From assembly GCF_900142185.1 (NCBI RefSeq), contig NZ_FQZZ01000001.1:1116001-1180000 (forward strand): a stretch of DNA of 64,000 nt. Reading direction: 5' to 3'. The translations under genes were made by a program, and so were the position numbers. How positions within the stretch are numbered: position 1 is the first letter of the stretch; each line of letters starts with the position of its first letter. Shown in pieces: positions 1 to 48,442 of the stretch. The DNA comes from Lutimaribacter pacificus (lineage in GTDB: Bacteria > Pseudomonadota > Alphaproteobacteria > Rhodobacterales > Rhodobacteraceae). Below the pieces are notes generated by a model. It was not told the DNA's origin, searched no databases, and saw nothing but the letters and a program-made list of their open reading frames with translations.

Positions 1-299
1 GCGCCTTTACCGCCGGCTACGCCGCGGGGCAGGAGATCACCGTGCCCATCGCGCATCACGACGGCAACTACTATGCCGACGACGAGACCCTGAAGGCGCT
101 GAACGATCAGGACCGCGTGGCGTTCCGCTATGCCGACAATCCCAACGGGTCGGTTCAGGACATCGCCGGCCTGCTGTCGGAGAACCGCCGGGTGCTGGGC
201 ATGATGCCCCACCCCGAGCGGATGGCCGAGCCCGCCCATGGCGGCACCGACGGGCAGGCGATGTTCCGCGCATTGACGGACCAGCTCGAGACTGCCTGA
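1..299 (+). CDS. purQ: PurQ, FGAM synthase glutaminase subunit, C-terminal part
   Basis: The reading frame is open from the window edge (first full codon at base 3) and ends at 299, so only the last ~98 residues are present. Residues such as [12 protein letters not shown] and the final MMPHPERM match the end of the class I glutamine amidotransferase domain of PurQ. The His and Glu of PHPE are the second and third members of the Cys-His-Glu triad. The enzyme supplies ammonia to PurL for FGAM formation in purine synthesis. The short [10 protein letters not shown] stretch before it fits the family. The catalytic Cys lies outside the window. Family assignment is firm; the start cannot be seen. 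Confidence 0.93.
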
Positions 300-14210: not shown

Positions 14211-14287
14211 GCGGTTGTAGCTCAGTTGGTTAGAGTACCGGCCTGTCACGCCGGGGGTCGCGGGTTCGAGCCCCGTCAACCGCGCCA
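14211..14287 (+). tRNA. tRNA-Asp (GUC), copy 1
   Basis: 77 nt including encoded CCA. The acceptor GCGGTTG pairs with CAACCGC, followed by discriminator G. D-loop GCTCAGTTGGTTAGAGT, anticodon stem CCGGC/GCCGG around CTGTCAC (anticodon GTC), T-arm GCGGGTTCGAGCCCCGT. The sequence is identical to the copy at 14446. Confidence 0.97.
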
Positions 14288-14445: not shown

Positions 14446-14522
14446 GCGGTTGTAGCTCAGTTGGTTAGAGTACCGGCCTGTCACGCCGGGGGTCGCGGGT
14501 TCGAGCCCCGTCAACCGCGCCA
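14446..14522 (+). tRNA. tRNA-Asp (GUC), copy 2
   Basis: Exact 77-nt duplicate of the gene at 14211, with encoded CCA and anticodon GTC. The copies start 235 bp apart. Flanking sequences are unrelated except for short stretches, so conversion or selection rather than a recent long duplication keeps them equal. Confidence 0.97.
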
Positions 14523-45581: not shown

Positions 45582-47396
45582 TTAATCTTCGGACCACCAG
45601 ACATCGGGCATCCAGCCGATCCTGTCGCCATATATCGGCGTATTTTCGGGAAATTTCAAGTTTTTGGCATGGGCCACGCGGTCGGTCAGGGTGGTCCAGA
45701 TCGGGATGACGAAGCGCCCCGCCATCAGCACCCGGTCCAGCGCGCGGGCGGCGGCGGTGAAATCCTCGGGGGTTTCGGCGTTCAGCAGCGCGTCGATCAT
45801 CGCGTCCACCGCCGCGCTTTGCACGCCCATCAGGTTGCGGGTGCCGTTGCGGTCGGCGCCTTCCGAGCCCCAGTAAAGCCGCTGCTCGGTGCCGGGGCTG
45901 AGCGACAGGTCGCGCCGGAAGGTCATGATGTCGAAATCGGCCGCGGCCTCGCGCTCGGTGAACTGGGCGTTGTCGATGCTGCGGACGGTCAGCGCGATGC
46001 CCAGCCGCTCCAGCGCGCGGGTATAGATCTGCAGAACCGATTCCATCCGCTTGTCGCCCTGGCGCAGCACCGCCTCGATCTGGAACGGCTGGCCCTCGGC
46101 GTTGCGCAGCACGCCCTGCTCTACGCTCCATCCGGCCTGCGCCAGCAGATCGACCGCCCGGCGCAGGTCGCCCCGGTTGCGCGGCGCGCTGTCGCCTTCG
46201 GGCAGGGCATAGCCCTCGATCGCGCCGGGTGGCAGCGTATCGGCGAAGGGGGCCAGCAGCGCGCGCACCCGGCCGCTGGCCGGGCCGGGGCGCATGGCCA
46301 GGTCGGAATTGGCGAAATAGGAGGTGATGCGCGGCTGCCGCCCGCCGGTCACGGTGCCGTTGATATAGGGAAAGTTGAACGCCAGGATCAGCGCCTCGCG
46401 CACGCGCCAGTCGGCCAGGTGCGGGCGGCGGGTGTTCATCACGAAGCCGGTCATGCCGGTGGGGCGGTCGTGGCGGATTTCCGACAGCACGATCCGGCCC
46501 GATTGCACGGCGGGAAAATCGTATTGCGTGGCCCATTTGTCGGCGTTGGTTTCGCGGTAGAAATTGAGGACACCGGCCTTGAACGCCTCGAACATGACGT
46601 TCTCGTCGCCGAAGAACTCGATGCGGATCTCATCGAGATTGGCGATGCCGCGCCGGATCGGCAGGTCGTTGCCCCAGTAATCGGGGTCGCGCGTCAGCGT
46701 GACGTGGCGGCCCGCCTCGTACCCGGTGACGACATAGGGCGCGGTGCCGATGGGAATGTCGCGGATCGTGCCGGCGGTGAAATCGCGCCCCTCCCATTGC
46801 GCCTTTTTCAGGATCGGGCGCAGCCCGGCGATCAGCGCCAGTTCGCGGTTGTCGCCCTCGAATGTCAGGCGCAGGCTGCGCGGGCCGGTCTGTTCGATGC
46901 TTTCGACCTGCGTCCAGAACGGAAGGTAGCGGGGGTGGCCCACCGTGCCCAATGTCTCGTAGGACCAGATCACGTCCTCGACCGTGACCGGGCTGCCATC
47001 CGAGAATCGCGCCTGCGGGCGCAGCGTGAATTCGACCCAGGACCGGTCCGGCGCGACCTCGACCGATTCGGCCAGAAGGCCGTAAAGCGCAAAGGGTTCG
47101 TCCCAGTTTCGCGTCATCAGCGATTCATAGGCATAAAACCGCAACTGCCACGGGACCGTGCCCTTGCGCAGGAACGGGTTGAGCGAATCGAAGCCCCCGG
47201 TATTGCCCTCGACCAGCCTCCCGCCACGGGGCGCGTCGGGGTTGGCATAGGGCAGGGACACAAAATCCGGTGGTAGCTGCGGCTCGCCATACATAGCGAT
47301 GCCATGGCGCGGTTCGGCGATTCCCGCCACGGCCTGAAAAACAAAGGCCGCAACGGCGGTGACGACCAGGGATTTACGGAAAAATATAGACCGCAT
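45582..47396 (-). CDS. YejA-like family 5 solute-binding protein
   Basis: 604 residues from ATG 47396, which starts directly at a signal peptide (MRSIFFRKSLVVTAVAAF). SBP_bac_5 fold: GFDSLNPFLRKG near the N-terminus, a YLPFWTQVESI region, and RPTGMTGFVMNTRRPHLADWRVREAL in the middle. It resembles YejA, the binding protein for oligopeptides/microcin C uptake. No permease or ATPase genes are adjacent; instead an entericidin gene follows. The transporter core may be elsewhere. Confidence 0.88.
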   Translation of the reverse strand: MRSIFFRKSLVVTAVAAFVFQAVAGIAEPRHGIAMYGEPQLPPDFVSLPYANPDAPRGGRLVEGNTGGFDSLNPFLRKGTVPWQLRFYAYESLMTRNWDEPFALYGLLAESVEVAPDRSWVEFTLRPQARFSDGSPVTVEDVIWSYETLGTVGHPRYLPFWTQVESIEQTGPRSLRLTFEGDNRELALIAGLRPILKKAQWEGRDFTAGTIRDIPIGTAPYVVTGYEAGRHVTLTRDPDYWGNDLPIRRGIANLDEIRIEFFGDENVMFEAFKAGVLNFYRETNADKWATQYDFPAVQSGRIVLSEIRHDRPTGMTGFVMNTRRPHLADWRVREALILAFNFPYINGTVTGGRQPRITSYFANSDLAMRPGPASGRVRALLAPFADTLPPGAIEGYALPEGDSAPRNRGDLRRAVDLLAQAGWSVEQGVLRNAEGQPFQIEAVLRQGDKRMESVLQIYTRALERLGIALTVRSIDNAQFTEREAAADFDIMTFRRDLSLSPGTEQRLYWGSEGADRNGTRNLMGVQSAAVDAMIDALLNAETPEDFTAAARALDRVLMAGRFVIPIWTTLTDRVAHAKNLKFPENTPIYGDRIGWMPDVWWSED

Positions 47397-47437
47397 TTCT
47401 GCAACAATCCTGCTCTGCCTTTGTTTTCTTGAGGCGG

Positions 47438-47466
47438 AACGTAGCGGTGGATTCATTGCTTTTCAA
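47438..47466 (-). promoter_or_regulatory. Possible promoter of the YejA-like gene
   Basis: On the minus strand TTGAAA (47466-47461), 17 nt, TACGTT (47443-47438). It lies back-to-back with the rightward small-RNA promoter, -35 boxes ten bases apart. Confidence 0.4.
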
Positions 47467-47475
47467 ACTTTTAGC

Positions 47476-47504
47476 TTGGAGTCGCGTGTTGGATTGCTTA
47501 TAAA
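47476..47504 (+). promoter_or_regulatory. Promoter of candidate small RNA
   Basis: TTGGAG (47476-47481), exactly 17 nt, TATAAA (47499-47504). A good sigma-70 match (-10 five of six). Expected start near 47511. Confidence 0.7.
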
Positions 47505-47510
47505 GAGGGC

Positions 47511-47587
47511 ACTGCTCGATAGGTTTCTTGCCTGTATGAAACCTGCCTCAATAACTGAACGCCGGCCTTGTGCCGGCGTTTTTTTTT
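47511..47587 (+). ncRNA. Candidate small RNA (~77 nt)
   Basis: Defined by the promoter ending at 47504 and the strong terminator ending at 47587. The 5' part folds as AGGTTTC (47521-47527) / GAAACCT (47538-47544) with a 10-nt loop; a single-stranded stretch GCCTCAATAACTG leads to the terminator. No open frame with a ribosome site fits inside. It lies between the divergent YejA-like and hydroxybutyrate dehydrogenase genes. I do not recognise it as a named Rhodobacter small RNA. It could instead be an attenuated leader of the downstream gene, whose start is 82 nt beyond the terminator. Confidence 0.6.
47558..47587 (+). terminator. Intrinsic terminator of the small RNA
   Basis: AACGCCGGC (47558-47566) / GCCGGCGTT (47572-47580), loop CTTGT, with nine T from 47579. 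The strongest intrinsic terminator in the window. Confidence 0.9.
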
Positions 47588-47668
47588 GTGTGCCCGCTGG
47601 CGGGGTCTTGGTTCCTTTTGCAGATGCAGAATGTCAGGATGGCGGGGAAACCAGACAAGGAGCCATCC

Positions 47669-48442
47669 ATGAGCTTTGCAGGAAAGACCGCCATCGTCAC
47701 CGGATCGAATTCCGGGATCGGGCTGGGCGTTGCCCGGGAACTGGCCCGCGCGGGCGCGAACGTGGTGCTGAATTCCTTTACCGACCGGGACGAGGATCAC
47801 AAGCTGGCCGCCGGCCTGGCGGCCGAATTCGGCGTGACCGCGCGCTATATCGCGGCCGACATGTCCGACCCCGACGCCTGCCGCGCGCTGATCGCGCAGG
47901 CCGGGGCCTGCGATATCCTCGTGAACAACGCAGGCATCCAGCATGTCAGCCCGATCGAGGATTTCCCGGTGGCGAAATGGGATGCGATCATCGCGATCAA
48001 CATGTCCTCGGCCTTTCACTGCACCGCCGCCGCGCTGCCGGTGATGCGCAAGGCGGGCTGGGGCAGGGTGGTCAATATCGCCTCGGCGCACGGACTGACG
48101 GCCTCGCCCTACAAATCGGCCTATGTGGCGGCCAAGCACGGGGTTGTGGGGCTGACCAAGGTCACCGCGCTGGAAACCGCGCAGGAGGATATCACCTGCA
48201 ACGCGATCTGCCCCGGCTACGTGAAAACCCCGCTGGTCGAGGCGCAGATTCCCGACACGGCCGCGAAATACGGCATGACCGAGGAAGAGGCGGTGCAGAA
48301 GGTGATTCTGGAGCGCCAGCCGTCCAAGCAATTCGCCACCGTCGAACAGATCGGCGGCACCGCGGTATTCCTGTGCTCGCCCGCCGCCGACCAGATCACC
48401 GGCACGACGATCAGCGTGGACGGCGGCTGGACCGCGCTGTGA
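47669..48442 (+). CDS. bdhA: 3-hydroxybutyrate dehydrogenase
   Basis: 257 residues from ATG 47669 (AAGGAG upstream). SDR motifs: TGSNSGIGLGVA for NAD binding, NNAGIQHVSPIEDFP, Ser and YxxxK in ASPYKSAYVAAKHGV, and the QFATVEQIGG end typical of PHB-type D-3-hydroxybutyrate dehydrogenases. It oxidises 3-hydroxybutyrate, the monomer released from PHB, to acetoacetate. That product could feed a CoA-transferase like the one at 17-18 kb. Confidence 0.93.
   Translation: MSFAGKTAIVTGSNSGIGLGVARELARAGANVVLNSFTDRDEDHKLAAGLAAEFGVTARYIAADMSDPDACRALIAQAGACDILVNNAGIQHVSPIEDFPVAKWDAIIAINMSSAFHCTAAALPVMRKAGWGRVVNIASAHGLTASPYKSAYVAAKHGVVGLTKVTALETAQEDITCNAICPGYVKTPLVEAQIPDTAAKYGMTEEEAVQKVILERQPSKQFATVEQIGGTAVFLCSPAADQITGTTISVDGGWTAL

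Follow-up and report, generated by a model that had tools for sequence, protein, structure and literature searches.

A conserved small RNA gene of Rhodobacteraceae with predicted pairing to the UpsM/dcw leader of the cell division operon

We analyzed a stretch of 64,000 nucleotides from Lutimaribacter pacificus (contig NZ_FQZZ01000001.1, positions 1,116,001 to 1,180,000; hereafter the window, numbered from its first letter). A gene for a small RNA (sRNA) of ∼77 nt is located at 47511..47587 of the plus strand, its start being inferred from the -10 element and the onset of conservation. It is flanked by a divergently transcribed gene for a family-5 extracellular solute-binding protein (SBP_bac_5, 45582..47456, minus strand; Pfam PF00496) and, downstream, by a gene for 3-hydroxybutyrate dehydrogenase (47669..48442, plus strand), which scored over the cut-off of TIGR01963. 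The sRNA gene is preceded by a promoter of the form TTGGAG-17-TATAAA (47476..47504, plus strand), recognized by its sequence and its conserved arrangement, with the -35 element at 47476-47481, a 17-nt spacer and the -10 element at 47499-47504. Between TATAAA and the first hairpin lies ACTGCTCGAT. Hairpin 1 (47521..47544, plus strand), supported by the fold and the alignment, consists of AGGUUUC and GAAACCU around the loop UUGCCUGUAU; in DNA letters it reads AGGTTTC-TTGCCTGTAT-GAAACCT, with 7 bp between arms at 47521-47527 and 47538-47544 and a 10-nt loop. It is separated from the terminator hairpin by a linker, GCCUCAAUAACU (47545..47556, plus strand; GCCTCAATAACT in DNA letters). The intrinsic terminator (47557..47587, plus strand), detected by a terminator scan, combines a hairpin of 10 pairs (47557-47581) with nine T (47579-47587). 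The preliminary description of this DNA had listed the same promoter, 7-bp hairpin, single-stranded segment and terminator with nine T, and had placed them between a peptide-binding-protein gene and 3-hydroxybutyrate dehydrogenase; all were found where it had put them, and both neighbors agree with PF00496 and TIGR01963. Elsewhere in the window, two tRNA-Asp (gtc) genes with equal Rfam scores lie ∼235 nt apart (14211-14287 and 14446-14522).

Taken singly, the promoter and terminator parts are weak. A generic consensus scan of 3 kb around the sRNA returned no sigma-70-type promoter, and the three terminator-like sites found in 3 kb hardly exceeded the mean of 2.4 in shuffled sequence. In combination, the sRNA elements exceed chance: the fold of 47505-47595 had a z-score of -4.96 and none of 200 shuffles was as good, although part of its energy comes from a 6-bp outer helix that reaches past the terminator. 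The arrangement of the promoter was conserved among relatives. TTG[GA]-15..19-TA[TC].. occurred at the right distance in 158 of the 175 distinct upstream regions, compared with 17 of 1750 mononucleotide shuffles; the spacer was 17 nt in 136 of these 158, and TTGG-17-TATAA is conserved upstream of the sRNA gene. Upstream of the -35 element, 126 of the 175 regions also contained the block CAAACTTTT (47464..47472, plus strand in the window), for which an UP-like element or a regulator site are candidates.

The neighborhood was compared across loci, some of which came from genomes fetched twice, so that the following locus counts are not fully independent. At 139 of the 145 loci with enough upstream sequence, the solute-binding gene was divergent and at most 400 nt away; the terminator therefore is not the end of a longer transcript from that gene, a reading that the preliminary description had set against its candidate and that was not borne out. 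The dehydrogenase gene, on the same strand as the sRNA, started within 700 nt downstream at 107 of 138 loci, as would be expected if the RNA were an attenuated 5' leader of that gene in the way that UpsM is of mraZ. At the other 31 loci it was farther away or missing nearby while the sRNA core was still kept, and its distance varied widely. The sRNA is thus not simply a dehydrogenase leader, and we regard this reading as improbable. As judged from sequence only, the gene has the properties of a trans-encoded sRNA: its own promoter, an intrinsic terminator and an upstream gene that is not co-directional. The divergent upstream gene and the dispensability of a nearby dehydrogenase support the earlier proposal of a stand-alone regulatory RNA, and on this comparative evidence 47511-47587 of the plus strand is a real stand-alone sRNA gene.

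The gene was found throughout the family. BLASTN searches with 47470-47600 of the window matched 35 of 36 genomes of the same family (E values of 2.6e-63 to 4.7e-15), the only genome without a match (G035) being 74% complete, and in a genus sample centered on a Paracoccus genome the sRNA gene was present in 120 of 121 genomes. This agrees with the conservation of 47511-47587 that had been named as a check on the candidate. The same query produced no convincing match in 24 genomes from other families, where the best match (1.9e-4) covered the terminator part only. A 30-nt core pattern allowing up to 3 mismatches, searched in 142 genomes of which 2 belonged to the family, was found in none of the 140 genomes of other alphaproteobacterial families. 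A core scan of named genomes yielded at least 118 matching stretches; the 80 matches listed carry names that we take to be those of Rhodobacterales or uncultured alphaproteobacteria, and it is by these names that we take the family to be Rhodobacteraceae. Four plasmid or chromid records from three Paracoccus species carry the sRNA, at places where an incomplete gene table lists no feature, and three further such records matched the terminator part only; phage records gave no match to the sRNA. No Rfam family reached its gathering score.

We aligned 47 genes, comprising 45 of 76 with distinct cores and the variants of two genomes (G031 and G085). Two-sided compensatory changes were present in 8 of 9 terminator-stem pairs. 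The covariation score of the whole structure was 0.222, compared with 0.078 in shuffles (none of 500 reached it) and at most 0.067 when the structure was slid along the alignment; the count of further pair types was equaled by 32 of 500 shuffles. In hairpin 1, 6 of 7 pairs never varied, so its covariation speaks neither for nor against it; of the covariation check suggested earlier, the part concerning the terminator stem thus stood, and the part concerning the near-invariant hairpin 1 went neither way. Of 34 invariant alignment columns, 31 lie in the 5' half of the gene, a 40-nt part that is nearly invariant. Since the 76 genes had been gathered with a pattern fixing 23 of 24 core bases, the invariance of the core is partly due to selection of the sequences, but unfiltered BLAST loci agree with it. 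An ATG lies inside this core, and a very short peptide (ATG AAA CCT GCC TCA ...) might be encoded there; its frame was not kept past the core in the 47 genes, in which lengths vary after GCCTCA, and no ribosome-binding site was seen ahead of the ATG, which makes this reading very improbable.

The preliminary description had named no target, and the dcw/UpsM leader is new here as a partner of the sRNA. In Rhodobacter sphaeroides, UpsM is reported to arise by partial termination within the 268-nt leader of the dcw operon, and the long, terminator-containing leader is presented as a peculiarity of Rhodobacteraceae (PMC5089854). The same source describes UpsM as conditionally cut by RNase E, with involvement of Hfq and RpoHI/RpoHII. 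The leader emerged as a target without a prior guess: genome BLASTN searches with the sRNA returned the gene itself and, in 23 of the 35 genomes that carry it, also a short match to the dcw leader. These second matches covered about positions 58-82 of the query and were each weak alone (E values of 0.028-0.98). Among 20 loci fetched from them, picked by query range, 19 contained mraZ and the remaining one preceded a motB-like gene; the remaining four of the 23 genomes were confirmed via other leader loci. A reading of the match as a shared same-sense motif, acting as a decoy for StsR or a protein, was withdrawn, as mraZ is on the opposite strand. In the window's own genome, the leader site (G000:C3, L031:520-536) is transcribed from the minus strand. 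With mraZ on that strand, the leader RNA holds CAGGUUUCAUACAGGCA, a perfect complement of sRNA positions 47529-47545. This 17-nt seed of the sRNA, UGCCUGUAUGAAACCUG (47529..47545, plus strand), consists of the loop and the 3' arm of hairpin 1.

Complementarity was conserved in 30 leaders gathered by similarity to the own leader. The longest contiguous complement was 10-18 nt (median, 16), compared with a mean of 6.7 and a maximum of 12 in shuffled leaders (n = 1200) and at most 9 in a same-sense control; in 9 of the 30 leaders the 10-12 contiguous pairs are not above the shuffled maximum, which counts against pairing there. Identity across the 30 leaders was 94% within the site and 50-67% in the three neighboring stretches measured, and pairing with the sRNA would offer a reason why 16 nt are conserved where the leader otherwise varies. 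Dimer partition functions, computed with the sRNA of the window for every leader, gave a mean of -20.5 kcal/mol versus -7.9 kcal/mol with the site shuffled, and binding was stronger with the intact site in all 30. Five core bases of the site had a mean unpaired probability of 0.81, compared with 0.37-0.51 for whole leaders. RNAduplex z-scores against shuffled leaders ranged from -0.8 to -5.2 and were weak for some leaders, and on the estimated R. sphaeroides UpsM the program preferred another region than the site; as its unlimited internal loops led to unrealistic long-range pairings, we relied on contiguous complementarity and dimer partition functions. When up to 3 mismatches were allowed, a 20-nt complement pattern occurred in 99 of 100 family genomes (the sRNA gene itself being included), and the reversed pattern in 5 of 100. 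Conserved complementarity of the sRNA to an mRNA from another locus is as expected of a trans-encoded sRNA, and its pairing with the leader is a well-supported prediction.

A second contact may be formed by the 5' segment CUGCUCG (47512..47518, plus strand), which is complementary to CGAGCAG within the leader element GCGAGCAG. This element was 100% identical in the 30 leaders, and the contact is suggestive; it spans only 7 nt and is missing from some further leaders, for example L292. Apart from the sRNA site, the dcw leader contains a very conserved block, GCGAGCAGACATCCCCCCAGGTGG, with 95-100% mean identity over the 30 leaders (L193-L222). The four leader loci that were scanned match no Rfam family, and UpsM is a candidate for a new entry there.

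Natural variation of site and sRNA was followed in a larger set. Nineteen further mraZ loci were fetched by protein from 21 genomes, partly chosen for a deviating leader or sRNA; two genomes (G010 and G024) gave no mraZ, and one leader cut by a contig end (L304, from G019) was left out, resulting in 48 readable leaders. At least 9 contiguous complementary bases (9-18) were present in 46 of these, about 140-230 nt before mraZ. The two leaders without a site belong to G031 (L288) and G085 (L300), in which the sRNA loops have changed to GUGCCUAUGU and UUGUCUGUAC. Both leaders are also without the GCGAGCAG element. In three others (L203, L292, and L301) the CATACAGGC part is lost and GAGGC precedes AGGTTTCA; here, 14-15 nt could pair by taking in the GCCUC(AA) of the sRNA linker, to which GAGGC is complementary. 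Lost and shifted sites are as expected under selection for pairing with the sRNA, the cases being few: since the seed hardly varies, compensatory changes of sRNA and target cannot be counted, and the concordance consists of the two lost and the three shifted sites. A third genome, G019, differs by one base in its sRNA loop, and its leader is the one that ends at the contig end. Two observations count against the pairing: the genome that is 74% complete (G035) has a 13-nt leader site although no sRNA was found in it, and two of the 46 leaders (L289 and L296, from G016 and G121) have only 9 contiguous bases. An ungapped scan was low for L202, whose contig starts inside the site, L222, which is one base shorter, and L293; their longest contiguous matches were 16, 12, and 13 nt, respectively.

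The shifted sites also bear on the reading that a protein binds the conserved 40 nt, as RNA or as DNA, with the likeness to the leader arising from a shared protein site. The invariance of arm, loop, and flanks does exceed what pairing alone needs. The leader RNA, however, bears the reverse complement and not the same sequence, and the shifted leader sites extend the complement into the sRNA linker, so that we consider a shared protein site a poor explanation with little chance of being right.

A reversed direction of regulation is the main rival to our reading: UpsM, very abundant in growing cells, would sponge the sRNA off other mRNAs, and dcw would not be the regulated output. The 40-nt nearly invariant stretch goes beyond one target's need, and a single target does not fully explain the invariant 5' part. 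One genome (G034) has 20 nt that are perfectly complementary to the sRNA (query 62-81; L253, G034:C17:169549-169568) directly upstream of the start codon of a motB-like gene, which we take to be motB; this complement was found in only 1 of 27 such loci, and motB was dropped as a second conserved target. A near-match, GCGGTAGGTTTCAAACAGGC, recurring in three genomes (G107, G115, and G121) was likewise dropped, its flanks resembling a coding region. The few searches made for a second conserved target thus returned none. Reports on R. sphaeroides describe UpsM as its most abundant sRNA and as the principal sRNA bound to Hfq (PMC5089854, PMC8307010), which speaks for sponging. Overall, we consider the reversed direction unlikely, if clearly less so than the other rivals.

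In R. sphaeroides, the predicted site can be placed on a published map. On contig C4 of genome G077, SorX and SorY lie within a few bases of their published positions, 2,598,224 and 1,632,642 (PMC6238624), and the coordinates of C4 are therefore those of that paper. The sRNA copy is at ∼1,444,075-1,443,998 on the minus strand of chromosome 1 of strain 2.4.1 (ends estimated). Interpolation of published sRNA positions suggests the number RSs1368 for this copy, an identity that we do not claim; the number is not printed in the literature searched. Five exact core strings of the sRNA were not found in that literature either. A second UpsM-targeting sRNA was absent from titles and abstract beginnings among the matches listed; an earlier mention of the sRNA in the primary StsR paper, the 2009 R. 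sphaeroides list, or supplementary tables is possible. The predicted site within UpsM (L212, 694690-694705) comprises 12 contiguous pairs, one mismatch, and 5 pairs, and ends 15 nt before the RNase E cut published at 694,720 (PMC6238624).

Cleavage of UpsM already has an assigned regulator. Binding of StsR to UpsM and the dcw leader is reported to open the RNase E site and to lower dcw mRNA, and UpsM processing in R. sphaeroides is ascribed to StsR (PMC8307010, PMC11354728, PMC8625941); the share of the sRNA described here may therefore be small in this species. We located StsR via the complement of its published Northern probe (PMC11354728). The probe site is at 858,073 in R. sphaeroides, in the same genome as the sRNA at ∼1,444,0xx. 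The probe complement was found neither in the sRNA nor, with up to 3 mismatches, in the window's own genome, and identity of the sRNA with StsR, which has 72 nt and also targets UpsM, is ruled out by the probe sequence. Among 198 family genomes, 2 had an exact copy of the probe site, a count from which a diverged StsR could escape; eight more matches with 2-3 mismatches look like chance because a reversed control matched more often. StsR site and sRNA gene occur together in two genomes (G077 and G117). In our own reading, not taken from a paper, UUCACUGUCCC of StsR matches, and may pair with, GGGACAGUGAA close to the 5' end of UpsM in R. sphaeroides; this UpsM stretch is absent from the own leader.

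Sequence comparison establishes the gene, its complementarity on the transcribed strand and the loss of the site in two genomes with a changed seed, and from it we infer pairing in cells and a first contact through the loop. We consider it likely that this is a family-wide trans-acting sRNA that pairs with the UpsM/dcw leader and tunes its cleavage or read-through. In such a mechanism, the loop sequence CCUGUAU would first touch the mostly unpaired AUACA of the leader. The sRNA hairpin would then open and the duplex grow to 12-18 bp, perhaps with CUGCUCG/CGAGCAG as a second contact. The leader might subsequently refold near the RNase E site and shift cleavage or terminator read-through, and thereby set the levels of UpsM and dcw mRNA. 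The direction of this last step is a guess; by analogy with StsR, down-regulation appears the more likely one. An hfq gene is encoded in the own genome. The sRNA probably helps to set the amount of cell division machinery made. More tentatively, and with the balance somewhat against it, the sRNA could be an ancestral, family-wide RNA switch of the Rhodobacteraceae cell division operon that first makes a loop-loop contact and then pairs as a full duplex close to the RNase E site, with StsR as a later, lineage-specific second input at a neighboring site and UpsM as the shared hub at which both RNAs integrate growth and stress signals into division.

If the pairing is right, a ∼77-nt RNA acts on the leader of the division operon across a family of marine, soil, and phototrophic bacteria, and the unusually long dcw leader receives a second RNA input beside StsR. 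The prediction can be tested directly in R. sphaeroides, for which maps of UpsM, StsR, and the RNase E cut already exist. What is gained is a family-wide sRNA that belongs to no Rfam family and has a specific, conserved, predicted partner.

Among known RNAs, the best sub-threshold Rfam matches of the sRNA were SorX (RF02784), BjrC1505 (RF02356), and Hrs13 (RF02631), with which it shares a short hairpin, a linker, and a terminator; these matches reached ∼24 bits versus gathering scores of 46.6-52. EcpR1 of Rhizobiales is likewise described as an alphaproteobacterial sRNA, one with an effect on the cell cycle, and its targets are reportedly gcrA and dnaA. Intergenic 134 of Paracoccus denitrificans resembles the sRNA in its description and may or may not be the same RNA: it is reported as an RT-PCR-confirmed RNA of 84 nt that is conserved across Rhodobacteraceae, has a putative homologue in R. 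sphaeroides that shares its context and shows homology to Actinobacteria (PMC5107571). At its published place, no sRNA match was found in the 121-genome genus sample, which perhaps did not include P. denitrificans. From its predicted partner, the UpsM/dcw leader (RSs0682), the sRNA differs in having its own promoter and terminator, whereas UpsM is made by partial termination of an mRNA leader. The closest likeness in function is to StsR (RSs0827) of R. sphaeroides, described as an orphan sRNA of 72 nt whose 3' end resembles a terminator (PMC8307010): the sRNA has a similar length of ∼77 nt, ends in a terminator and has the same leader as its predicted partner. Yet it is encoded by another gene, has another sequence and another pairing site and is family-wide; it is thus predicted to work like StsR without being StsR.
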